From: a virus | Direction: 5' to 3' (one strand) | DNA length: 44,612 nucleotides | IMG/VR virus record: IMGVR_UViG_3300025679_000002 | Coordinates: 1-44,612 of that record | Shown here: piece after piece, positions 1-44,612 of the stretch | Position numbering within the stretch: position 1 is the stretch's first letter | How the letters are laid out: each line of letters opens with the position of its first letter | The notes under the pieces: generated by a model | What the model saw: only the letters and a program-made list of their open reading frames with translations | What the model was told of the DNA's origin: nothing | Database searches by the model: none | Program-made: the position numbers and the translations under genes

Positions 1-127
1 GTCTTGACGAGCAACCCTCCCCAGTATTACTGCGTGGATGATGACGGGAACCGTAACCCGTGCTACTGCCACGTCTGCGACTGGGACGGGTGGGCTCCGC
101 AGAGCGAGGACGAGATGCACGCGATAA
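1..127. repeat. Contig-end overlap, left copy
   Basis: These 127 bases are identical to the last 127 bases of the window (44486-44612). A gene reads without interruption through the join. A 127-base end overlap equals a k-mer size commonly used by short-read assemblers, so the simplest reading is a circular or terminally redundant molecule and not a biological direct terminal repeat. Confidence 0.95.
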
Positions 128-7894: not shown

Positions 7895-9811
7895 ATGGTC
7901 ATAAGCTCCCAGCAGTGGCTCCTCTACGAAGAGTCTCGCGCCAGGGGATTGAACCAGGCGAAAGCCGCCAGAGCCGCGGCGATAGGGATTTCCTCAGCGA
8001 AGCGGCATGATTCTCGCGCTCCCGAGGGTACAAAGTACCGTGAGATTGCCAGATTAGCCAGGAATCAGCCGGACCCGATGCGGCCCGCTCAACTTGGTCC
8101 TGAGGCGAAGAAAGCTTTGAAGGACTTCAACTACTTCCAGAAGCGATACCTAGGCCGGATTGGACTCCCCTGGCAGCAGGACGCGGCGAAGCAGATCGTC
8201 AAATTGCTCCATTCCGAAGACAAGGAGTACGTGGTCATCAACGCCCCCCCGGGAAGTGGTAAATCATCCTTCTTCACCTACGCCCTGCCTCTCTGGTTGA
8301 CGTGTCAGGACAGGGCCATTCGAGGATTAGTAGGTTCGGCAACCGCCAGACTTGCCTCTCAGTACACGGCGAACATCCGTCGAGCTTTGGAATCCACCCT
8401 CCCGATTCTGGCGGATGAGGAGGATTTAGCCAAAGGAATAGCCGTTGACGCCGAGGCCACCCTCTCTGAGGATTTCGGACGCTTCAAGCCCGTCGATCAC
8501 GAGAGTTGGACCAAGGACGCCTTCATCGTCCAGCAGTTCGACGGTGCCTCGATTACCTCAAAAGAACCGACCTGGACCGCCGTCGGGAGGGACCAGGAAT
8601 TCATCGGGGGACGGTACGACTTCTGTATCTGGGACGACCTCGTTACTTCTAACAGACTTAGGTCTTTGGAAACCGTCGAGAAGGACCGGGACTGGTGGGA
8701 CACCTACGCGGAACGACGGTTAGAGCCTGGGGGGTTGCTGATACTCCAGGGTCAAAGAATGGGCGCCAACGATCTGTACAGGTACTGCCTGGACATGGAA
8801 GTAGTCGATATCGAGGAAGACGCCCAGGACGATTTAGAGGGCGTTTCGATGAGGGAGAGTGAAGATGGGTCCAAGAGGAAGTACCACAGCATCATCTACC
8901 GCAGCCACTACGACGAGTTCTGTAAAGGGAAAGACACCCATAAGTTGTCCGCCGACCCTTGGCCCAAGGGCTGCCTTTTGTCTCCAAGAAGGGTTAGCTG
9001 GCGCGAAGTGTCGTCTATGCAGCACCGTCGCCCGGACACCTACGCCCAGGTCTACCAGCAGTTAGACGTTTCCAACGACACGGTTCTCGTGGACCCAGCC
9101 TGGATAAGCGGTTCGGGTAATTTCGTCGGCTGCTGGGACATGGAGAGGGATAGGCTGGAGATTCCCCAAGGGCTCGCTCCTCCCACGTATTCGATAGTCT
9201 CCGTTGACCCCTCTCCCACCAGGTACTGGGCTATCGAGTGGTGGCTGTACAACGAACCCTCGGACCAGTGGTTCCTCATTGATTTACTTAGGTCAGGCTT
9301 GGACGCGCCGGATTTCCTGGACTGGAACCAGAACGAAGCGCAGTACTACGGGGTGATGGAGGACTGGCAGCAGATGAGCTACAAACTGGGTGCTCCGATA
9401 ACCCACTGGATAGTGGAACGTAACGGCGCGCAGAGGTTTCTTCTTCAGTACGACCACGTCCGCAAGTGGCAAGCGAAGAACTCCGTTCAGATAATCCCCC
9501 ACGACACCTACCGCAACAAGGTCGATGACGAGTTCGGGGTGCAGATGATCGCTCCGGCGTTCAAGTTCGGTCGCGTCCGCCTTCCTGGGAAGTCAGCGCG
9601 TAACGCGAAGGTCCAGCCGATGGGCCGGATGCTCGCGATGAAACTGGTGGATGAGGTGACGCGGTTCTCGACCACCTCATCCTCTAAAGGTACGACCGAC
9701 GACTGCGTGATGGCGATGTGGTTCGCGCTCTTTCAGATGCAGTATTTAGCCATCCCATCAAGTACAATCAGGCCTAGCCGCAGACCGTCGTGGTTAGGAA
9801 GGGCGTCGTGA
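7895..9811 (+). CDS. terL: Terminase large subunit
   Basis: This is the ATPase and nuclease that packages DNA into the procapsid. It has 638 residues. Residues 5-45 form a small helix-turn-helix-like segment (GLNQAKAARAAAIGISSAK). Walker A is APPGSGKS (117-124), Walker B is FCIWDD (243-248), and the C-terminal RNase-H-like nuclease has SVDPSP (435-440) and TDDCVMAMW (601-609) with the metal-binding aspartates. No small subunit lies next to it; HTH proteins at 38246 or 41438 are candidates. ATG 7895 has no ribosome site and abuts a parS palindrome. Confidence 0.92.
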   Translation: MVISSQQWLLYEESRARGLNQAKAARAAAIGISSAKRHDSRAPEGTKYREIARLARNQPDPMRPAQLGPEAKKALKDFNYFQKRYLGRIGLPWQQDAAKQIVKLLHSEDKEYVVINAPPGSGKSSFFTYALPLWLTCQDRAIRGLVGSATARLASQYTANIRRALESTLPILADEEDLAKGIAVDAEATLSEDFGRFKPVDHESWTKDAFIVQQFDGASITSKEPTWTAVGRDQEFIGGRYDFCIWDDLVTSNRLRSLETVEKDRDWWDTYAERRLEPGGLLILQGQRMGANDLYRYCLDMEVVDIEEDAQDDLEGVSMRESEDGSKRKYHSIIYRSHYDEFCKGKDTHKLSADPWPKGCLLSPRRVSWREVSSMQHRRPDTYAQVYQQLDVSNDTVLVDPAWISGSGNFVGCWDMERDRLEIPQGLAPPTYSIVSVDPSPTRYWAIEWWLYNEPSDQWFLIDLLRSGLDAPDFLDWNQNEAQYYGVMEDWQQMSYKLGAPITHWIVERNGAQRFLLQYDHVRKWQAKNSVQIIPHDTYRNKVDDEFGVQMIAPAFKFGRVRLPGKSARNAKVQPMGRMLAMKLVDEVTRFSTTSSSKGTTDDCVMAMWFALFQMQYLAIPSSTIRPSRRPSWLGRAS

Positions 9812-11679
9812 CGACCTCTATCGAATCCATCGAGCAGTTCTATCGACAACGACAGGCTGAACGCGGACCCTTGCTGATGCGCTGGGCGGAAGTAGCGCGT
9901 CACGTTGACGGGGATATCACCGTCCCGCTCTCTGAACTGGATAAAGACGAGAAGTCGATGGCCGTCAATCTGATGGGGCCTGGGTTAGACCAATTAGCGA
10001 TGCGAATCGCCTCGACGATGCCCGACATCTCAGTCGATGCTCTACGACCAGGATTCAAGGAATCGGAGAACAGGGCCGACACCAAGCGCAAGGCGATGCT
10101 CTCGTGGTGGGACATGAACCGCATGGATATGATTATGCGCCGGCGAGCTCGGTATCTCCTTGGGTACGCAGCAAGCCCAGTCTCCATCTCCTTCATGGCG
10201 ATGAACCCGCTCGACAAGCGAGAGATGCCCCACTGGCGAGTCTTGAACCCGATGTGCGTCTTTCCCGCTCCGACGACGGACCCCAACGACATCGAGCCGC
10301 CGAACTCCATCCACTCGACGCTGCAGACGTTGTCCTGGCTGCAAGCGACCTACCCAGTGCAAACGTCGGTTCTGTACAAGGGGAAGGCCAATCCCTCTAC
10401 GAAATTTGAAATCCTTGAGTACAACGACGACGAGGAAACCGTCTTACTCGCGTTAGGAGCGGTGAAGGAATCCGACGAAGGTCCTCACTGGATGGCCGCG
10501 AGCACCGTCGCGAACGGGACGCAGAGTTGCGTGGAACTCGCGAGAGTGGTGAACCGCGCCGGGATCCCGTTGACGGTGTATCCCGGCAGGATAACGCTCT
10601 CCAAACTACAGGGGATGTTCGACCAACTCATGCCCGTGTATCACAACGCCTCGAAACTCGCGGCCTTGGAATACATCGCCATCAAGCAAAGTATCTTCCC
10701 CGAGCAGTGGTTGGTCAGCCACCCCAACTCGCCTGGTCAGGCGCAGATAATTAACGCGGCGGACGGGTTAACCGGCGTCATCGGAGAAATCAGGAATGGG
10801 CAACTTCAGCAAACTCAAACCCAGCCATCTGTACAAGCGGCTCAGATGCAGGACCGACTGGAGCGCGTTGGAAGACTCGCTGGAGGACTACCTGCTGAAC
10901 TGGGTGGTGAATCCGCCACGAACATCCGCACCGCACGAAGGGGCGAAGCAGTCCTTGGCGCAGCGATTGACATGCCGGTACAAGAGCATCAAGAGATTTT
11001 TGAAGACAGCCTTGAAGCGGAGAACCGGCGAGCGATAGCGGTCTCTAAAGGACACTGGGGACCGAAGCAGTTCTCGTTCTACATCCCTCGCAACGGGAAG
11101 ATGACCTCAAAAGACTACGTCCCGAACGACGTATTCGAGAACGATCAGAACGTCGTCAAGTACGGAATGACTGGAACGGACGCGAACTCCTTCGTCATCG
11201 CGATGGGACAACGTCTTCAGATGGAAACCATCTCCCAAGAGACCTTCATGGAGATGGACCCAGTTGTTGAGGACGTGCAGGAAGAACTCGCACGCATCAA
11301 CATCGGCGGCGCACGCAGGGCGATGATGAGTTCAGTCGAGAACGGCGCAAGCCAAGGCCAGATTGACCCGACGTTCATCGCTCGCTTCGCCCAAGCCTTA
11401 CAGGACGGCAAGACGAACCCAGAAGATGCCCTGGTCAAGGTACATAAAGAGATGCAGGCCGAACAAGCCGCGCAGCAACCCCCTCCGGGGGCAGCCGCTC
11501 CCCAGCCTGGGCAGATGCCTGGGATGACTGGCGCCCCCGGAGTCCAGGGCGGTGTGCCGATGCCGCCACAGGGCCAAGGGGCACTAGCGAAGATACTCGG
11601 GAACCTTAGGCAACCCGCGGCACAAGGACCAAGTGAGCAGGCTGGGAATGCGCCGCCTCCTAACGCGATGGCACAGTAG
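9808..11679 (+). CDS. Portal protein
   Basis: The start is GTG 9808, overlapping the terminase stop and preceded by AGGAAGGG; GTG 9790 is less likely. It encodes about 623 residues. Its position directly after terL, its size, the helical N-terminus (SIEQFYRQRQAERGPLLMRW), the central strand-rich wing and the long Gln/Ala-rich C-terminal barrel-like helix (QALQDGKTNPEDALVKVHKE) fit a portal, the dodecameric ring through which DNA passes. The last 80 residues are Pro/Gly/Gln-rich and probably disordered inside the head. Confidence 0.78.
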   Translation: MTTSIESIEQFYRQRQAERGPLLMRWAEVARHVDGDITVPLSELDKDEKSMAVNLMGPGLDQLAMRIASTMPDISVDALRPGFKESENRADTKRKAMLSWWDMNRMDMIMRRRARYLLGYAASPVSISFMAMNPLDKREMPHWRVLNPMCVFPAPTTDPNDIEPPNSIHSTLQTLSWLQATYPVQTSVLYKGKANPSTKFEILEYNDDEETVLLALGAVKESDEGPHWMAASTVANGTQSCVELARVVNRAGIPLTVYPGRITLSKLQGMFDQLMPVYHNASKLAALEYIAIKQSIFPEQWLVSHPNSPGQAQIINAADGLTGVIGEIRNGQLQQTQTQPSVQAAQMQDRLERVGRLAGGLPAELGGESATNIRTARRGEAVLGAAIDMPVQEHQEIFEDSLEAENRRAIAVSKGHWGPKQFSFYIPRNGKMTSKDYVPNDVFENDQNVVKYGMTGTDANSFVIAMGQRLQMETISQETFMEMDPVVEDVQEELARINIGGARRAMMSSVENGASQGQIDPTFIARFAQALQDGKTNPEDALVKVHKEMQAEQAAQQPPPGAAAPQPGQMPGMTGAPGVQGGVPMPPQGQGALAKILGNLRQPAAQGPSEQAGNAPPPNAMAQ

Positions 11680-12140
11680 TGCCACACGCACGCTCTTCTC
11701 CTCGCGGAAAGTTACAACCGAACCGCGCTGACTTAACGCGCCCTGCCGTCCAGACCGTCCCCGGTCAAGGTTACGGTGAAGCGGCAGCACAACGATCCGC
11801 GATGCAAGCAATCCCGCTTCCAACGCCACAAGTCCCCGGTGGGGGTGCGCCCACGTCGCCCCCCACCGGCCCTCCCTCCGCGCTCGCAGGCGCTCCGATG
11901 GTTGGTTCTAACGGTCCACTCACCAGACCTACCGAGCGACCGAACGAACCAGTAACGCACGGACTTCCCGTAGGGCCAGGCGCGGGGCCGGAAGCGTTGC
12001 AAGGTGTCGGTGCGGCGGCGAGAGAGAACGCAGTAGAGCAAGGGACGCTTTCGCACCTCCTCACCTCGTTGGCGTCAGTCCCTAACGCCACGTCAGCAAT
12101 CAAAGACTTGGCCGCGCGCGCGACGCAGGGCGTGATGTGA
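11679..12140 (+). CDS. Pro/Gly-rich head-associated protein
   Basis: GTG 11679 overlaps the portal stop (TAGTG). It encodes 153 residues: an Arg-rich start (MPHARSSPRGKLQ), a central GQGYGEAAAQRSAMQAIPLP that resembles small proteins found after the portal in other actinophages, then about 50 residues of Pro/Gly/Thr and a C-terminal helix. It is probably a minor virion component. The function is unknown. Confidence 0.6.
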   Translation: MPHARSSPRGKLQPNRADLTRPAVQTVPGQGYGEAAAQRSAMQAIPLPTPQVPGGGAPTSPPTGPPSALAGAPMVGSNGPLTRPTERPNEPVTHGLPVGPGAGPEALQGVGAAARENAVEQGTLSHLLTSLASVPNATSAIKDLAARATQGVM

Positions 12141-21377: not shown

Positions 21378-21860
21378 ATGCCAGAAGAGACTGAAGTACT
21401 GACACCCGAAGAACTTCAATTGCCCAATGAAATCCAGGCGCAACTTCGCATTGGCCGCAAGGTCGCGAAGGAACTTGAGGCCTCCCAAGCCCAGGTAAAG
21501 CAAATGGAGAAGCAGTCGGCGATTGATAAAGCCGGTGTCCCAGAACACCCAGCACGAGATGTTGTCTTTGCGAACTACGACGGTCCGCTCGAAGCCGAAC
21601 CCATTAGGGAGTACGCGGCCAAGATGGGGATCGTCGCTCAAGAGGCGCCCACAGGGGTGACTGCTCAAGAGACGGAAGCGATGCGACAGATTCTCCAAGC
21701 CGGTGGGGGAAGCCCTCCCAGCTCAGGTGACATCGACGCCGCAGTTGCTATGCGAAATGCCAAGACCCCCCAAGAGGTCATGGACATCGTGAAGCAGGTG
21801 GCGGGTCAGCCGGGTTTCAAGAACGCTCAGGGTCTGATAGGCGTGTTGCCCGAGTATTAA
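21378..21860 (+). CDS. Scaffold-like protein
   Basis: ATG 21378 follows AAAGGAAA. It encodes 160 residues, strongly acidic at the start (MPEETEVLTPEELQLPNE), with a coiled-coil stretch (VAKELEASQAQVKQMEKQ) and a flexible Gly/Ser/Pro middle. Such a helical, acidic protein directly before the major capsid gene is the usual place of the assembly scaffold. The assignment is by position and composition. Confidence 0.55.
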   Translation: MPEETEVLTPEELQLPNEIQAQLRIGRKVAKELEASQAQVKQMEKQSAIDKAGVPEHPARDVVFANYDGPLEAEPIREYAAKMGIVAQEAPTGVTAQETEAMRQILQAGGGSPPSSGDIDAAVAMRNAKTPQEVMDIVKQVAGQPGFKNAQGLIGVLPEY

Positions 21861-21885: not shown

Positions 21886-22896
21886 ATGGCTTATACCACC
21901 ACAGGAACGGTTGACTACGTTCAGACCAGTTGGGACATGCTCGCGTACTTCGCGCTGCGACCGGAAGAGTACTTCGACCAGGTAGCCGACGTGAAGCCGA
22001 CGAACCAATCCAACCCTGGTTCGAGCGTTGTCTTCAACGTGCAGAACGACATGGCACTCGCTACGACCGCCATCAACGAATCGACCGACATCACGCCGGT
22101 TGCCCTCACTTCAAGTCAGGTCACCTTGACCTTGGCTGAGTACGGCAACGGCACACTGACGACCTCCGCCCTTCGTGGTCAGGCGTTCGTGGACATCGAC
22201 GCGATTCAGGCGAACGTCGTCGGACAGAACGCGGGACGTTCCGTTGACGAGTTGGCGAAAATCCAGCTCCAAGGCGGCTCGAACGTCAGTTACGCGGCTG
22301 GTCCCGGCGTCACCGCAGGTACGGCTGGGCAACCACCCGCCGCACGCAACCAGATCACCCCCTTGGACACGATTCGCGCCTACGACATCCGCTACAACGT
22401 GGCTGCCCTCAAGCGCAATAACGTCCCTGGTTACGGTGGGTACTACCTCACCTTCATCCACCCGGACGTTTCGTTCGACCTCTGGCAGGAGAGTGGCAAC
22501 CAAGCCCTCATCGCCCCGCACGTCTACTCCGCCCCGGACGAAATCTTCCGTGGTGAGGTTGGTTCGTTCGCGGGCGCCAGGTTCATCGAGACCCCGACCG
22601 CCCCGCTGTTCGCGGACGCCGGTTCCTCGACGACCGACACCGACGTGTACGGGACGCTGTTCATCGGACGCCAAGCCCTAGCCAAGGTCTGGTCGATGAA
22701 GGACGGCAACGGTCCACAGCCCGTCATCGTCATGGGTCCGATCACCGACTTCCTTCGCAAGTTCCAGCCCGTCGGTTGGAAGTGGATGGGTGCCTACGGG
22801 GTCTTCCGTTCGCAGAGTGTCTGGCGCTTGGAGAGTGCTTCGTCCATCGGTCAGAACACGACCGCCGGAGTAGACACTCCCGCAGAGGACCTGTAG
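21886..22896 (+). CDS. Major capsid protein (N4-gp56-like)
   Basis: This gene starts at ATG 21886 after AGGAGG and encodes 336 residues. The sequence has the pattern of the N4-gp56 branch of HK97-fold capsid proteins: an N-terminal arm (TTTGTVDYVQTSWDMLAYFALRPE), then TLTLAEYGNGTLTTSALRG and the helix VDELAKIQLQGG, with YLTFIHPDVSFDLWQ near the middle. Its own promoter, strong ribosome site and flanking hairpins fit the most abundant virion protein. Confidence 0.78.
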   Translation: MAYTTTGTVDYVQTSWDMLAYFALRPEEYFDQVADVKPTNQSNPGSSVVFNVQNDMALATTAINESTDITPVALTSSQVTLTLAEYGNGTLTTSALRGQAFVDIDAIQANVVGQNAGRSVDELAKIQLQGGSNVSYAAGPGVTAGTAGQPPAARNQITPLDTIRAYDIRYNVAALKRNNVPGYGGYYLTFIHPDVSFDLWQESGNQALIAPHVYSAPDEIFRGEVGSFAGARFIETPTAPLFADAGSSTTDTDVYGTLFIGRQALAKVWSMKDGNGPQPVIVMGPITDFLRKFQPVGWKWMGAYGVFRSQSVWRLESASSIGQNTTAGVDTPAEDL

Positions 22897-34311: not shown

Positions 34312-35435
34312 CCGCATTCCAACGCAGGTACTACGACGGGGGCGGAGCGGCTACGTCGCTCGCGTCCTCGATGGGCGCTGCCGATACCTCTTTCGTCCTC
34401 ACCTCAGCTACGGGGTGGCCGGGGTCACCCGCCAACGATTTCGCGGTGTGCATCGACCGCGGGACTTCTAACGAGGAAAAGATTCTCTGCTCCTCCAACT
34501 CAGGGACTACGGTCACCGTTGTAACCAGGGGGATAGACGGCACCTCCGCAACCACCCACTCCGCTACGGCACCCGTAGTCCTTTGCGCAATCTCTACCGA
34601 CTTTGACGAGGCCAACCAACTCACCAACCTCGCGGGCAACTTAGCCACGGGTTCTCTGATAGTCGGCGCTGGGGCGGGAACACTCCCCACGGCGTTGGGC
34701 GTTGGTTCAGCCGCGTCAATCCTTGCGGGTGGAACGTCACCCTCTTACGTCTCTGGTACGAACGGTCAGGTGTTCGGGGTCAGCGGCGGTTCGGTCGCGG
34801 CGATAACGCTCGCCAGTGCAACGGTCCTCACCCCCGTCATCTCGTCCATCAGCCTCACCGCAACGAACGGCAGTTACATCGAAGCCACCGCTTCCATCAC
34901 TGTCACTTCCCCAGCGGTCACAGCGGGCAACAAGTTCGGAGCCTTCGCTAACTACGCCGCGACTAACGCTTCGCCCGTCACCGTGACAGCCGCTAGTGGT
35001 AACTTCATCGGCCCTGGCATCCCTGCTTCAACAACGTCTATTCTCCTTGGCGCGCCGAACGCCAACGTGTCCTTTGCCAGTGACGGGACGAACTGGATAC
35101 TGACAAGCGGCGAACAGGACTCTGGGTGGATTACGCCGAGTCTTGGGAACTCGTGGGCCACCGTGAGCGCGACCCCTAAGTACCGCCTAAAAGGGAACCG
35201 TGTGTCCCTCCAGGGGGACATGAATGGCGGGGGGACAGCAACTGTGCCGTGGGTGATGCCAAGCGGTTACCGACCTCTGGTGAGTGGCTATTACGCCGCC
35301 GCCGCGACGACGACCTCGAACGTGGCTATGGCCGCGATTGTACAAATCACAGTCTCCACTGGGAACATCCAACCCATATTTGGGGCGACGCTTACTGACT
35401 TCGCGCTCAACGGCATCTCCTACACGGTTGACTAA
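34308..35435 (+). CDS. Minor tail/fibre tip protein
   Basis: ATG 34308 overlaps the previous stop. It encodes 375 residues. The N-terminal 90 residues (DTSFVLTSATGWPGSPANDF, GTSNEEKILCSSNSGTTVTV) match the small beta domain common at the start of actinophage minor tail proteins. The middle is Gly/Ala/Ser-rich and the C-terminal 120 residues are a compact beta domain (QDSGWITPSLGNSW, YRLKGNRVSLQGDM) like receptor-binding tips. Confidence 0.6.
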   Translation: MTAFQRRYYDGGGAATSLASSMGAADTSFVLTSATGWPGSPANDFAVCIDRGTSNEEKILCSSNSGTTVTVVTRGIDGTSATTHSATAPVVLCAISTDFDEANQLTNLAGNLATGSLIVGAGAGTLPTALGVGSAASILAGGTSPSYVSGTNGQVFGVSGGSVAAITLASATVLTPVISSISLTATNGSYIEATASITVTSPAVTAGNKFGAFANYAATNASPVTVTAASGNFIGPGIPASTTSILLGAPNANVSFASDGTNWILTSGEQDSGWITPSLGNSWATVSATPKYRLKGNRVSLQGDMNGGGTATVPWVMPSGYRPLVSGYYAAAATTTSNVAMAAIVQITVSTGNIQPIFGATLTDFALNGISYTVD

Positions 35436-35953
35436 TGAGAGACAGTCGCGCCGCGATAGTAGCCACAGCCTTCTGGCTTGAGGCCCGTAAGTCTCGCTGC
35501 ACCTACTCCGAGGGCGCACAGAGGATGTCCTGTATCGGCAGACCGTTCACCGTCCCCTACGTCTCGGACTGTTCCGCGTTCGTAACTGTGTGCTACAACT
35601 GGGCCGGAGCTCCGGACCCGAACAAACTTCACTTCGACCACGAGGGCTACACAGGGACCTTGTTATCAGCCGGTGAACACCTAGCCCTGTTCAGAATCAA
35701 CGGACGCGGCATGACCCACGAAGAGGTAGAGCCAGGAGATGTCGTTGTCTTCGGTCCAGGGACAGGCGTCCACACCGCGCTCGTTGTAGGCAAGGGCAAC
35801 GGCGACCCCGTCTGCATCTCAATGGGCAGGCAGGGTGACCCGTCGATTGTAACCGTGTCACAGATGGCGTCACTTGGGGAGCAAACCTATCTAAGATTTA
35901 ATACCATGACCAGGAAAGTTCACTACCCGCCCGGACATAGGAAACTTCGATGA
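35435..35953 (+). CDS. NlpC/P60-type peptidoglycan peptidase (endolysin candidate)
   Basis: ATG 35435 overlaps the previous stop (TAATG). It encodes 172 residues. SDCSAFVTVCYNWAG near residues 44-58 holds the nucleophile Cys in the usual DCS context; PGDVVVFGPGTGVHTALVVG about 55 residues later holds the catalytic His after the PGD strand. This is the order of NlpC/P60 or CHAP peptidases that cut cell-wall peptides. There is no signal peptide, so release would depend on a holin. It is the first gene of the lysis block. Confidence 0.75.
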   Translation: MRDSRAAIVATAFWLEARKSRCTYSEGAQRMSCIGRPFTVPYVSDCSAFVTVCYNWAGAPDPNKLHFDHEGYTGTLLSAGEHLALFRINGRGMTHEEVEPGDVVVFGPGTGVHTALVVGKGNGDPVCISMGRQGDPSIVTVSQMASLGEQTYLRFNTMTRKVHYPPGHRKLR

Positions 35954-38245: not shown

Positions 38246-38479
38246 ATGCCAGAGAAGAAACCAGTAGTTGACCTGTCGGAGTTCAGGCGCAAGCCTACGG
38301 CGGGGTGCGGATTCGCTCGGCTCGTGATTCAGCCCGAGCATCTTGAGACGCTGAAGGCGGCGATGCAGGCCGACGACATCAGTGGTTCGTCTATCCACGA
38401 ATGGCTCAAGAAGCGCGGCTACGCCATCGCCGAGGGTTCGGTTCGCAAGCACCGCAAGGGAACCTGCGCATGCCCGTGA
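38246..38479 (+). CDS. HTH DNA-binding protein, candidate small terminase
   Basis: ATG 38246 follows GGGAGCATC. It encodes 77 residues: CGFARLVIQPEHLETLKAAM, then ISGSSIHEWLKKRGYAIAEG and SVRKHRKGTCACP, a helix-turn-helix whose recognition helix ends in a basic Cys tail. This protein type is widespread in actinophages. As no small subunit precedes terL, it is a reasonable small-terminase candidate, but a regulator is equally possible. Confidence 0.65.
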   Translation: MPEKKPVVDLSEFRRKPTAGCGFARLVIQPEHLETLKAAMQADDISGSSIHEWLKKRGYAIAEGSVRKHRKGTCACP

Positions 38480-39492
38480 ACGAACTAGAGGAGTTCCGCG
38501 CCCACGACAAGATTGAAGCACTACGTCAAGCCAACGCCACTCTCCAAACACAACTCATCGCGGCGAAGAACAGGGGCGCTGAGATTGTTAGCGCCGTCTA
38601 CCAGGCGGCCTACGACGCAGCGCTCCTGACGAGGACCGAGAAAATCGTCCCGCCAAAGGCGGACAAGCGCACGAAGTCCGAAGAGGTCTCTCTCTGGCAC
38701 ATGACGGACTGGCAGGGCAGCAAAGTCACGACGAGTTACAACTCCGAAGTGATGAAGGAGCGCGTCAAGTTGTTCGTGAAGAAGGCCCTCGCCATCACCG
38801 AGATTCAGCGGGCCGACCACCCCGTCAAGGATTGCGTCATCATGTTCGGTGGAGATATGGCCGAAGGCTTGTTCAACTTCCCAACCCAGCCCTTCGAGGT
38901 GGACGCCACGCTGTTCAAACAATTCGTAGTCGTTGCCAAGTTAATCGAAGAGGTAGTGCGTGAGGCACTCGCCAGCCACGAACACGTCACCGTCATCGGA
39001 GAGTGGGGCAACCACGGGCGCCTGGGTTCCAAGCGCGACGCCATCCCGAAGTCCGACAACCTCGACCGTATGATTTACGAACTCGCACGGCAACGGTTTG
39101 AGGGCGAGTCGCGTTTGACCTGGGAAGACGGAGCCGAGGATATCCAACGTGTCGAAATTGGGAACTACCGCGCGCTACTCATGCACGGCGACGAGGTCGG
39201 TCGGGCGGGCTTCGCAAGCCCATCCGCCTGGCAAGCAGCAGGGAACAGGTGGAAGGCCGGGGCGTACGACTGGGAGTTCCTGGACATCTTCCTAGGCCAT
39301 TACCACAAGGTCGCGCAGGAGAATCTAAGCGACGGTGTTGGAGCTATCTACTGGACCGGCTCGACAGAAAGCGACAACCGCTACGCCCGCGATTCAATGG
39401 CCGCGTCCGGCGTCCCCTCCCAACGACTCCACTTCATCGACCCCGATAAAGGTAGGACCACGGCGCAGTACATCGTGTATCTGGATAAGTGA
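38470..39492 (+). CDS. Metallophosphoesterase (calcineurin-like)
   Basis: ATG 38470 overlaps the HTH gene end. It encodes 340 residues with an N-terminal coiled coil (residues 5-35). The metal-site motifs are all visible: HMTDWQGS (Asp80), GGDMAEG (Asp129), GNHGR (180-184), LMHGDE (His239) and LGHYHK (His277, His279). Such phage enzymes hydrolyse phosphodiesters, often in DNA, in the manner of Mre11/SbcD. The close pairing with the HTH gene suggests work on phage DNA ends. Confidence 0.82.
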   Translation: MPVNELEEFRAHDKIEALRQANATLQTQLIAAKNRGAEIVSAVYQAAYDAALLTRTEKIVPPKADKRTKSEEVSLWHMTDWQGSKVTTSYNSEVMKERVKLFVKKALAITEIQRADHPVKDCVIMFGGDMAEGLFNFPTQPFEVDATLFKQFVVVAKLIEEVVREALASHEHVTVIGEWGNHGRLGSKRDAIPKSDNLDRMIYELARQRFEGESRLTWEDGAEDIQRVEIGNYRALLMHGDEVGRAGFASPSAWQAAGNRWKAGAYDWEFLDIFLGHYHKVAQENLSDGVGAIYWTGSTESDNRYARDSMAASGVPSQRLHFIDPDKGRTTAQYIVYLDK

Positions 39493-39632
39493 TGGACGGG
39501 ACCGCCTTCGGCTACCACGACGGCCTGGTCCTGCTGCGTGAAGAACCGCCTCAAAATACGCTCTGTCCCGTGTGCCACGAGACACGAGAAGATTTCTCGA
39601 TGCCCTGCGAACACTGTGACGGTGCAGATTGA
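39492..39632 (+). CDS. Small zinc-knuckle protein
   Basis: ATG 39492 overlaps the previous stop. It encodes 46 residues: LCPVCHE, then MPCEHCDGAD at the end, a four-cysteine zinc knuckle of the CxxC-CxxC type. The function is unknown. Confidence 0.6.
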   Translation: MDGTAFGYHDGLVLLREEPPQNTLCPVCHETREDFSMPCEHCDGAD

Positions 39633-39669: not shown

Positions 39670-40143
39670 ATGACCGTCGTCGCGGCGCTCATCACTCCGA
39701 AGGGATGCTGGATGGGTTCGGACTCCCTCAGTTCCGACGACCTAACCTGCGCCAGCGTTCTCACCCCGAAGGTCGGGAGGTTCGGGGACAAACTCATCGG
39801 CTTCGCAGGCTCGTGGGATGGGCAGCGCGTTCTCGATATCGCGGCGCGACACTCCGAATTGACCTACGCCGAGATTCTGTTCCGAGCGGGGACGCTGAAA
39901 CCAGGTCAGACAATCCTCTGTGTGGAGAACGGGAAGTTGCTCTTCACCCAGGACGACAAGGAGATACTCTTGCGGCGTAAGCGCGCGGGGATTTCCTACG
40001 ACGCCATCGGTTCGGGCTCCCCTCACGCACTCGGCTCTCTTTTCTCATGGCACGATGGACGCGAGGCACTAGCTAGTTCCTTGAAGGCCGCCGAAGCTCA
40101 CAACCCTTTCGTTCGCGGGCCGTTTAAGATAGTTTCAATCTAA
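39670..40143 (+). CDS. Proteasome-beta/HslV-like Ntn hydrolase
   Basis: ATG 39670 gives 157 residues starting MTVVAALITPKGCWMGSD. If Met is removed, Thr is residue 1, the aspartate of MGSDS is residue 17 and the lysine of TPKV is residue 33, exactly the Thr1-Asp17-Lys33 spacing of proteasome beta subunits and HslV; LIGFAGSWDGQ then matches their conserved GxAG loop at 43-46. AIGSGSPHALG is also typical of the fold. The enzyme should be an N-terminal-threonine peptidase forming rings. No ATPase partner gene is seen. It lies between the metallophosphoesterase block and a holin-like gene. Confidence 0.75.
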   Translation: MTVVAALITPKGCWMGSDSLSSDDLTCASVLTPKVGRFGDKLIGFAGSWDGQRVLDIAARHSELTYAEILFRAGTLKPGQTILCVENGKLLFTQDDKEILLRRKRAGISYDAIGSGSPHALGSLFSWHDGREALASSLKAAEAHNPFVRGPFKIVSI

Positions 40144-40151
40144 GGAGAACC

Positions 40152-40547
40152 ATGAACCCCAACGCAATCAAAGCAATAGTTCGAAGCATCACCCCCTCCC
40201 TCTACGCAGGGGTGGCGGCAATCATCGCGCACTTCGGCTACCACGTCGGCAACGCCACGGTCATTCAGATCGCCGCCGCCGCCTACGCGGGACTCACCGT
40301 CATCCTTCACGCGGCGGAAACCAGGTGGCCCTGGGTCGGTGGGTTGCTCGGCTGGTTCGGCGCCCCGCAGTACACACCATCCACGAAAGTCACCCTCGTT
40401 CAGGTCCAGGCTGAACTCGACGCGCTGAAGGCACAACAGCACGAGGCCGCGAACCCCACAGTCCCCACCGCACCCGTAGTTTCTCCGCCTGGCGCCATGG
40501 CTCCGCCCACCCCGATAATCCCTCCCGTTACGCCCTATCTGGGCTGA
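40152..40547 (+). CDS. Holin-like protein with two membrane helices
   Basis: ATG 40152 follows AAGGAGAACC. It encodes 131 residues: two hydrophobic segments (about 15-28, TPSLYAGVAAIIAHF, and 36-53, ATVIQIAAAAYAGLTVILHA), a short helix (VQVQAELDALKAQQHE) and a Pro-rich end. Size and layout fit an actinophage class II holin. The 120 bases that follow have no gene; the extended -10-like TGCTACAGT near 40634 may be a promoter for the next gene. Confidence 0.65.
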   Translation: MNPNAIKAIVRSITPSLYAGVAAIIAHFGYHVGNATVIQIAAAAYAGLTVILHAAETRWPWVGGLLGWFGAPQYTPSTKVTLVQVQAELDALKAQQHEAANPTVPTAPVVSPPGAMAPPTPIIPPVTPYLG

Positions 40548-40667
40548 GAACGCCGTACAGCGCGTCAGGGGAAAAGTTCCTAACAAAGTCGGCTCTGAAA
40601 ATCTCGCTATATCTACGCGCCATGACTCGTGCCGTGCTACAGTTGGCGTCAACTCAAGGAGGCAACA

Positions 40668-41441
40668 ATGAACATTCCAACCAACCTACCGAAGCTCAAA
40701 GGCGGAATCGGTGCGCCAGGGTCCGGCGAAGTCTGTGCAGAACAGGCCGTGAATTGGCTCGTGTCGGGTCGACTCGAGTTGGGAGATGAGACGGACCACC
40801 CGTCCTGCGTCCAACCAGTGTTGAACGCCCTCGCGATCCACGTCAACGACGCGCTACCCGACGAACGTAGGCATGAGATGTGGCCGATTATCCTACGCCA
40901 GCCCGGTACGGCGCACCCCGAGATGGAGCCGATTCTTTCGATTCGGCTCGCGTGCTTCCTGGCGAACAAGGTAATTCACTTGACGCGCAAGCAGGACCGC
41001 AAGGCGTGTGAGGACGCGATTGCTTCGTCCCTGGCGTACTGCGATAACCCGTGCAAGGAAACCGCCGACGCCGCCTACGCCTACGCCGCCGCCTGGGCCA
41101 ACGCCGCCGCCGCCTACGCCGCCGCCGCCGCCGCCGACGCCGCCTACGCCGCCGCCGCCGCCGCCGCCGCCGCCGACGCCGCCTACGCCGCCGCCGCCTG
41201 GGCCAACGCCGCCTACGCCGCCTACGCCGCCGCCGCCGCCGCCAACGCCGCCGACGCCGCCTACGCCGCCTACGCCGCCAACGCCGCCGCCGCCGCCAAT
41301 CCAAAAGACCGCTGGGACTCTCTTCTATGCATCTTGAACGACGCACAGAACGAGTGTGAGCGTCTGACAAATCACGTCGCGCCAGCGTGTGATTTGGACC
41401 GGGTGAAGCGACTCGGGGAACTCGTCGGGACCGTCAAGTGA
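40668..41441 (+). CDS. Ala-rich protein with conserved CVQPVL domain
   Basis: ATG 40668 follows AAGGAGGCAACA. It encodes 257 residues. Residues about 10-130 match a domain common in actinobacteria and their phages: EVCAEQAVNWLVSG, DHPSCVQPVLNALAIHVNDALPDE, then helices. Residues about 133-210 are a run of Ala interrupted by Tyr, Asp, Asn and Trp (AAYAAAAAADAAYAA), predicted as a long helix. A normal segment (WDSLLCILNDAQNECERL) follows. The function of the domain is unknown. Confidence 0.7.
   Translation: MNIPTNLPKLKGGIGAPGSGEVCAEQAVNWLVSGRLELGDETDHPSCVQPVLNALAIHVNDALPDERRHEMWPIILRQPGTAHPEMEPILSIRLACFLANKVIHLTRKQDRKACEDAIASSLAYCDNPCKETADAAYAYAAAWANAAAAYAAAAAADAAYAAAAAAAAADAAYAAAAWANAAYAAYAAAAAANAADAAYAAYAANAAAAANPKDRWDSLLCILNDAQNECERLTNHVAPACDLDRVKRLGELVGTVK
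41063..41298 (+). repeat. GCC-based codon repeat (Ala-rich tract)
   Basis: About 236 bases consist almost only of GCC codons mixed with TAC, GAC, AAC and TGG. The minus strand therefore shows a spurious poly-Arg frame. Such a simple repeat is prone to copy-number change by slippage and to assembly error. Confidence 0.9.
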
Positions 41442-43319: not shown

Positions 43320-43687
43320 ACGAACCCGACACCCTCTTCACCATCGGGGGCCATTGGTTTAAAAGCGAAATACTCAAGTTTGAATCCTGGCAACGCCACG
43401 ACCCGCCCTCCATCCACTACTCTCAGACTTCGATGGACGCGGCGACCTCCATCAAGCCCAAAGCTCCAACTCTCCGAGAACGCGTCTACCAAGCGATTAA
43501 GAACTCGCCATCAGGTCTGACGGACGAGGAAATCTGCCTCGTCACCCTTTTAGGCCCGTCTACTGCTAGACCAAGGAGAATAGAACTCGCAGCCGAGACC
43601 CCGCCGCGCATCCGCAGTAATGGAAAGCGCAAGACCGTGAGTGGACGTGACGCCACGGTATGGGTCGTGACGAACGCGGATTCTTGA
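43316..43687 (+). CDS. Winged-helix DNA-binding protein
   Basis: The start is GTG 43316, overlapping the HNH stop (GTGA). It encodes 123 residues. After a short N-terminal part comes TLRERVYQAIKNSPSGLTDE, then a helix and STARPRRIELAAETPPRIRS, ending in a wing-like GKRKTVSGRDATVWVV. This GLTDEE winged-helix domain is frequent in actinophage early regions and probably acts as a regulator or in replication. Confidence 0.65.
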   Translation: MNEPDTLFTIGGHWFKSEILKFESWQRHDPPSIHYSQTSMDAATSIKPKAPTLRERVYQAIKNSPSGLTDEEICLVTLLGPSTARPRRIELAAETPPRIRSNGKRKTVSGRDATVWVVTNADS

Positions 43688-44022
43688 GGTACGCGGCGGC
43701 CCTTCTCTTGGCCGCGATAATTTCATTGTCAGGACAGGCCGGTGCCTCGAAGCCCCTCGTCTCGTCGTCAGTGATGGCAAAGACGATCAAAGTCATGCAC
43801 TGCGAAACGGGTAACTGGCACACGAACGGGCCGCGCTACTACGGCGGGCTCGGCTGGCTCGACGCGACCTGGCTCTCCTATCGGCTCCCAGGCTTCCCGC
43901 GCTACGCCTCACAAGCCACCCCCGAACAACAGGCCCGCGCGATGCTCCACTTCGTCACGGTCGCCCTTCACGGCTGGTGGCCTCATCAGACGTACCCGGC
44001 GTACTGCGGACCTGGTTACTAG
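43660..44022 (+). CDS. Secreted Rpf-like transglycosylase
   Basis: ATG 43660 (or TTG 43684) gives 120 residues. A signal peptide (LRYAAALLLAAIISLSGQAG) is followed by a short linker and a domain resembling resuscitation-promoting factors: VMHCETGNWHTNGPRYYGGL with Glu49 as catalytic acid, DATWLSYRLPG, TPEQQARAM, and a second Cys at 116 (YPAYCGPGY) able to pair with Cys48. Rpf proteins cleave the glycan strand and wake dormant actinobacteria. The domain looks complete though short. Confidence 0.72.
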   Translation: MGRDERGFLRYAAALLLAAIISLSGQAGASKPLVSSSVMAKTIKVMHCETGNWHTNGPRYYGGLGWLDATWLSYRLPGFPRYASQATPEQQARAMLHFVTVALHGWWPHQTYPAYCGPGY

Positions 44023-44458: not shown

Positions 44459-44612
44459 ATGAGACACAACCCAATCAGGGGCCTCGTCTTGACGAGCAAC
44501 CCTCCCCAGTATTACTGCGTGGATGATGACGGGAACCGTAACCCGTGCTACTGCCACGTCTGCGACTGGGACGGGTGGGCTCCGCAGAGCGAGGACGAGA
44601 TGCACGCGATAA
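44459..44612 (+). CDS. Small Cys-rich protein, 5' part (continues at position 1)
   Basis: ATG 44459 follows AAGGAG. The 63-residue protein begins MRHNPIRGLVLTSNPPQYYC; its last part is at positions 1-165. A 12-codon frame at 44424-44462, overlapping both neighbours, could be a leader peptide that carries the ribosome site. The frame continues in register over the join. Confidence 0.65.
   Translation, partial: MRHNPIRGLVLTSNPPQYYCVDDDGNRNPCYCHVCDWDGWAPQSEDEMHAI
44486..44612. repeat. Contig-end overlap, right copy
   Basis: This is identical to positions 1-127. It should be counted once in the genome. Confidence 0.95.

Follow-up and report, generated by a model that had tools for sequence, protein, structure and literature searches.

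A divergent proteasome-like Thr1 peptidase of the PPH/AAH kind in a complete phage genome

Introduction

Fuchs, Alva and Lupas described 22 new proteasome homologues in 2021 (PMC8665760). The novel homologues have no propeptide and carry Thr1, Asp17 and Lys33, and their group I radiates from BPH, for which no unfoldase is known (PMC8665760). PPH, with about 140 residues and without helix H2, occurs in Caudovirales and in their hosts; AAH was not found in actinobacterial phages by that survey (PMC8665760). The superfamily also takes in the ligase connectase and non-ring forms (PMC8665760). The literature that we searched contained no study of what phage proteasome homologues do.

Here we analyse a peptidase gene in the window, by which we mean the whole 44,612-nucleotide stretch of viral DNA (IMG/VR record IMGVR_UViG_3300025679_000002). 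As judged from its sequence, the peptidase is a divergent group I member of the PPH/AAH kind, phage homologues having already been described in 2021. Like PPH and AAH, it is small (157 aa) and phage-encoded, here in a complete phage genome, has no propeptide, carries Thr1-Asp17-Lys33 and shows affinity to group I, with BPH as the best PDB match of the family profile A5. Its H1/H2 region is shortened in the predicted model and, in contrast to the AAH survey, probable actinobacterial phages carry such genes in the present analysis.

Other members of the superfamily are less close. HslV (ClpQ) has the same fold, the same Thr1/Asp17/Lys33 set, a GFAG motif and a similar length, but we saw neither HslU nor any other unfoldase encoded in the window genome, and the peptidase has no NCBIfam HslV match. 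Among PDB structures the family profile matches BPH (5ovs, 5ovt, 5ovu) best, but this bacterial protein is longer and forms a tetradecamer, whereas ring formation by the window protein is a prediction. The 20S proteasome beta subunit differs in that the window peptidase starts with Met-Thr, without a propeptide, and is the single phrog_1040 match in its genome, with no partner alpha gene.

Results and discussion

The gene and its N-terminus

The open reading frame, whose translation begins MTVVAALITPKGCWMGSDSLSS... and runs to 157 aa, has the coordinates given in a preliminary description of this DNA, and its numbering of Thr1, Asp17, Lys33 and GFAGS (43-47), counted with Met removed, was borne out. 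Residue counts in the following list refer to an alignment of 82 viral sequences in which one clade dominates.

39670..40143, + strand: CDS of the proteasome-like (PPH/HslV-type) Ntn peptidase, 157 aa
39664..39666, + strand: in-frame stop TGA, two codons 5' of the ATG, fixing the N-terminus with Thr after the initiator Met
39673..39675, + strand: Thr1 codon, predicted nucleophile once Met is removed; Thr in 82/82
39721..39723, + strand: Asp17 codon; Asp in 82/82
39769..39771, + strand: Lys33 codon; Lys in 82/82
39808..39810, + strand: Gly46 codon, candidate oxyanion-hole glycine in GFAGS; Gly in 82/82

Because of the in-frame TGA, no start further upstream is possible, and with the start thus fixed, Met removal exposes Thr1. 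GC by codon position is 58/48/72% compared with 59/48/78% in the major capsid gene, so the frame looks like a real coding sequence. Among the 225 window ORFs of at least 60 aa, only this one has [T/S/C]1-D17-K33, and shuffled ORFs give a chance rate of 0.01 per window for T1-D17-K33. A decaying or inactive remnant is highly improbable: the protein is the shortest of the aligned homologues and sits on a long tree branch, but its frame is intact, its codon-position GC normal and its catalytic set complete.

Homology and predicted fold

The profile phrog_1040 ('peptidase HslV family') matches the peptidase over its full length (residues 1-157, E 5.1e-13), more weakly than it matches the ct2KA10 or Pitbull proteins. 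Its homology is therefore independent of the residue spacing. No Pfam or NCBIfam model matched. A tblastn search with the peptidase found the uncultured 485-kb phage LR745208 (28%, E 3e-4), whose protein leads to homologues in phages of Vibrio, Geobacillus, Moorella, Psychrobacter, Xanthomonas and Arthrobacter; 'peptidase HslV family', 'proteasome subunit' and 'Ntn_hydrolase-like' are among the annotations that some of these carry. Identity to the phage homologues found is about 20-34%, and single-sequence queries of IMG/VR, GTDB genomes and plasmids returned no close relatives. A PDB search with the single sequence produced nothing beyond ankyrin-like matches over residues 48-75, which we rejected as due to chance.

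The A5 profile, built from 38 homologues and mostly not representing the window protein itself, matched BPH 5ovu (2e-13), HslV (2e-8) and also 20S beta subunits in the PDB. With E values of up to 1 allowed, 36 of the 38 aligned members, but not the window protein, touched Pfam Proteasome. The AlphaFold2 model of the peptidase (pLDDT 82.4, pTM 0.81) had its best Foldseek matches in the PDB in HslV, 20S beta and BPH (E 6e-8 to 3e-7, TM about 0.6-0.7, probability 1.00), and its best folds in BFVD were phage HslV-like proteins. The structure prediction proposed in the preliminary description thus gave an Ntn-type fold, and the claim of a proteasome-beta/HslV-type Ntn hydrolase is supported on three counts: the profile match, the predicted fold and the conservation of the catalytic residues. 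In the model, H1 spans residues 49-60 and the second helix is short, covering only residues 66-73; this shortening of the H1/H2 region could alter ring contacts.

We considered whether the window gene and the ct2KA10-type head-module genes may have a common origin. In a tree, a split (95/93) separates the ct2KA10-type head-module genes from the set that contains the window protein, with long branches. The branch of the window protein itself is long and poorly supported and falls apart from the ct2KA10-type group, in a tree from which PPH, AAH and CPH reference sequences are absent.

Catalytic residues

T1, D17 and K33 are invariant in 38/38 aligned phage homologues; conservation of the Thr and the Lys had been named beforehand as a point on which the peptidase assignment could fail. 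Across 12 diverse phage proteins Asp17 and Lys33 were invariant, and residue 1 was Thr in 11 and Ser in one. The oxyanion glycine of proteasomes is at position 47 (K33+14), while the candidate here is at mature position 46 (K33+13), not 47. Towards the C-terminus, Asn145 and Val148 align with an Asp and a Thr of the ct2KA10-type proteins. Given these two residues, the catalysis of the window peptidase may differ in detail.

This non-canonical C-terminal surround of the active site, along with the small size, would suit a specific ligase or processing enzyme comparable to connectase, or an inhibitor incorporated into host rings, instead of a general protease; the superfamily does include the ligase connectase and non-ring forms (PMC8665760). 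We regard such a role as decidedly unlikely, as the helical insertion of connectase is absent and the protein is most like the ring-forming HslV and BPH.

Genome, host and the question of an unfoldase

The window is a complete genome, as it carries a 127-bp terminal direct repeat and its ends are bridged by an identical IMG/VR contig (G001). The following features are relevant here:

1..127 (= 44486-44612), + strand: terminal direct repeat, 127 bp
38401..39492, + strand: calcineurin-like phosphoesterase / DNA-repair-exonuclease-like gene, phrog_284 E 3e-39
39492..39632, + strand: putative 46-aa ORF, CPVC...CEHC, zinc-ribbon-like by sequence, directly 5' of the peptidase
40152..40547, + strand: small holin-like membrane protein gene, 47% in G002 and 45% in G004
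9790..11679, + strand: portal gene, followed at once by the phrog_8200 gene, whereas ct2KA10-type phages have the peptidase gene in between
11679..12140, + strand: phrog_8200 gene, also present in ct2KA10-type phages, there preceded by the peptidase gene
21378..21860, + strand: scaffold-like gene, directly before the capsid gene, assigned by position
21886..22896, + strand: major capsid protein gene, phrog_1357 E 1e-66

Terminase relatives were found in Streptomyces and Microbacterium phages (24-28%) and in an Acidimicrobiaceae MAG (38%), the nearest chromosomal relative, and the phosphoesterase adjoining the peptidase has its nearest relatives in actinobacterial phages. On these sequence relationships the actinobacterial host suggested earlier is plausible. 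A transglycosylase-like protein (43660-44022, phrog_29757), of Rpf type by eye, also fits an actinobacterial host.

As had been claimed, no ATPase partner is encoded: we saw no AAA+ unfoldase in the complete window genome, and its sole credible Walker A is that of the terminase. The peptidase might then dock on an AAA+ unfoldase of the host, such as ARC/Mpa, and redirect degradation in the manner of HslV. In the Acidimicrobiaceae MAG we recognized, from reading the sequences, the genes Dop, psmB and psmA at one locus, and the host may accordingly possess proteolysis fed by an unfoldase. We nevertheless consider docking unlikely. The actinobacterial host is itself only likely, the H1/H2 region is shortened in the model, phages that carry homologues infect hosts as far apart as Vibrio, Geobacillus and Arthrobacter, and no unfoldase is known for BPH, which is the best match in the PDB (PMC8665760).

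We further noticed two tandem proteasome-like peptidase genes (MTCIVGLI...; L131:1189-1779 and 2044-2751) on a contig of genome G016, which belongs to the class of the Acidimicrobiaceae MAG.

A portal-linked clade in ct2KA10-type phages

The terminase of ct2KA10-type phages is 25% identical to that of the window phage, and the two have phrog_8200 and a giant structural protein in common. A search seeded with ct2KA10 and Pitbull yielded 381 viral contigs with such a peptidase gene. Among the best 80 of these 381, a ct2KA10-type portal gene lay upstream in 73, and downstream there was mostly phrog_8200. In a second, portal-seeded sample the peptidase stood directly behind the portal in 60/69 loci with enough sequence (a script counted 58; we added L162 and L221 manually, as the start of their open frames falls outside the limits set for distance), and it was cleanly missing in the other 9/69, where the portal is followed by a small ORF and then phrog_8200; both samples (L046-L125 and L157-L236) are the closest 80 loci and not unbiased. 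The gene is therefore strongly linked to the portal, yet dispensable.

A WhiB-like protein, recognized by eye in ct2KA10 (L128:38023-38376), suggests an actinobacterial host for these phages. Their head-module position of the gene hints at a virion-linked role for the family. It is possible, if doubtful, that the portal-adjacent Thr1 peptidase of the ct2KA10-type phages (probable freshwater Actinobacteria viruses) is a head-assembly or virion-associated protease, of which the window copy would be a divergent toolkit member, relocated or separately acquired. If true, this would be a new use of the proteasome fold. The portal-adjacent homologues in viral contigs offer a concrete place to test action on virion proteins, and the portal-linked clade is a more interesting lead than the window gene.

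Sister phages lack the peptidase

We compared the window with related records, taken as overlapping sets of terminase relatives and capsid relatives, most of which are fragments. None of the 24 related records besides G001 had a phrog_1040 match; G001, identical to the window and partial, ends before the peptidase gene. The sisters without peptidase have a terminase 70-86% and a capsid protein 80-87% identical to those of the window. In G002 and G004 (capsid protein 84% and 80% identical, respectively), the flanking holin-like and other genes match the window with no peptidase between them, a clean absence. The holin-like gene, kept in peptidase-less sisters, marks the insertion site, and the adjoining phosphoesterase gene is also absent from the sister phages.

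These comparisons bear on whether the peptidase is the head-maturation (prohead) protease, acting inside the procapsid to trim scaffold, capsid or internal proteins. The preliminary description had inferred possible processing of virion proteins from the absence of another prohead protease, and indeed we saw no other in the window; the position behind the portal in distant cousins of the window phage points the same way. That inference was not supported, as sisters with nearly the same capsid and portal lack the gene, and no such protease is therefore needed in this lineage. Compared with what is expected of a caudoviral prohead protease, the peptidase gene, at 39670 and upstream of the holin-like gene, lies outside the head module and is not conserved with the capsid gene. 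It can also be missing behind the portal in ct2KA10-type loci, and in Arthrobacter phage Pitbull a peptidase homologue (gene 77) coexists with a separate capsid maturation protease (gene 4). The neighbours of the homologues in other phages are nucleotide-metabolism and early genes. The window peptidase is thus probably not the prohead protease, a role that we hold to be very unlikely.

A probable accessory peptidase

On balance, we slightly favour an accessory group I proteasome-like Thr1 Ntn peptidase of the PPH/AAH kind, which would self-assemble without an unfoldase of its own and act on host or phage proteins, and would not be needed for head building. This reading starts from what could be directly established, namely homology, the predicted fold, the catalytic set, a start site from which Met removal leaves Thr1 exposed, a genome in which no unfoldase was seen, and sisters that lack the gene. 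Host methionine aminopeptidase would free Thr1, and the subunits, without a propeptide, would form a BPH/HslV-like oligomer. Lacking a dedicated unfoldase, this oligomer might, during infection and independently of ATP, cleave those parts of host or phage proteins that are unfolded or exposed. The complete genome and the close peptidase-less sisters argue that the gene is dispensable; as an accessory gene it may bring a benefit in some hosts or conditions.

Two further observations concern other genes of this lineage. Downstream of the holin-like gene, a 270-aa ORF (40629-41441) contains a long alanine-rich low-complexity run (AAYAAAAAADAAYAAA...), and a similar Ala/Arg-rich ORF is present in sister G006 (L040:14648-15316). 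Finally, the homologue in sister G002 (L037:6223-7662) of the lysis gene at 35435-35953 has an intein-like insertion (CFTPETRIL... HN), which is absent from the window copy.
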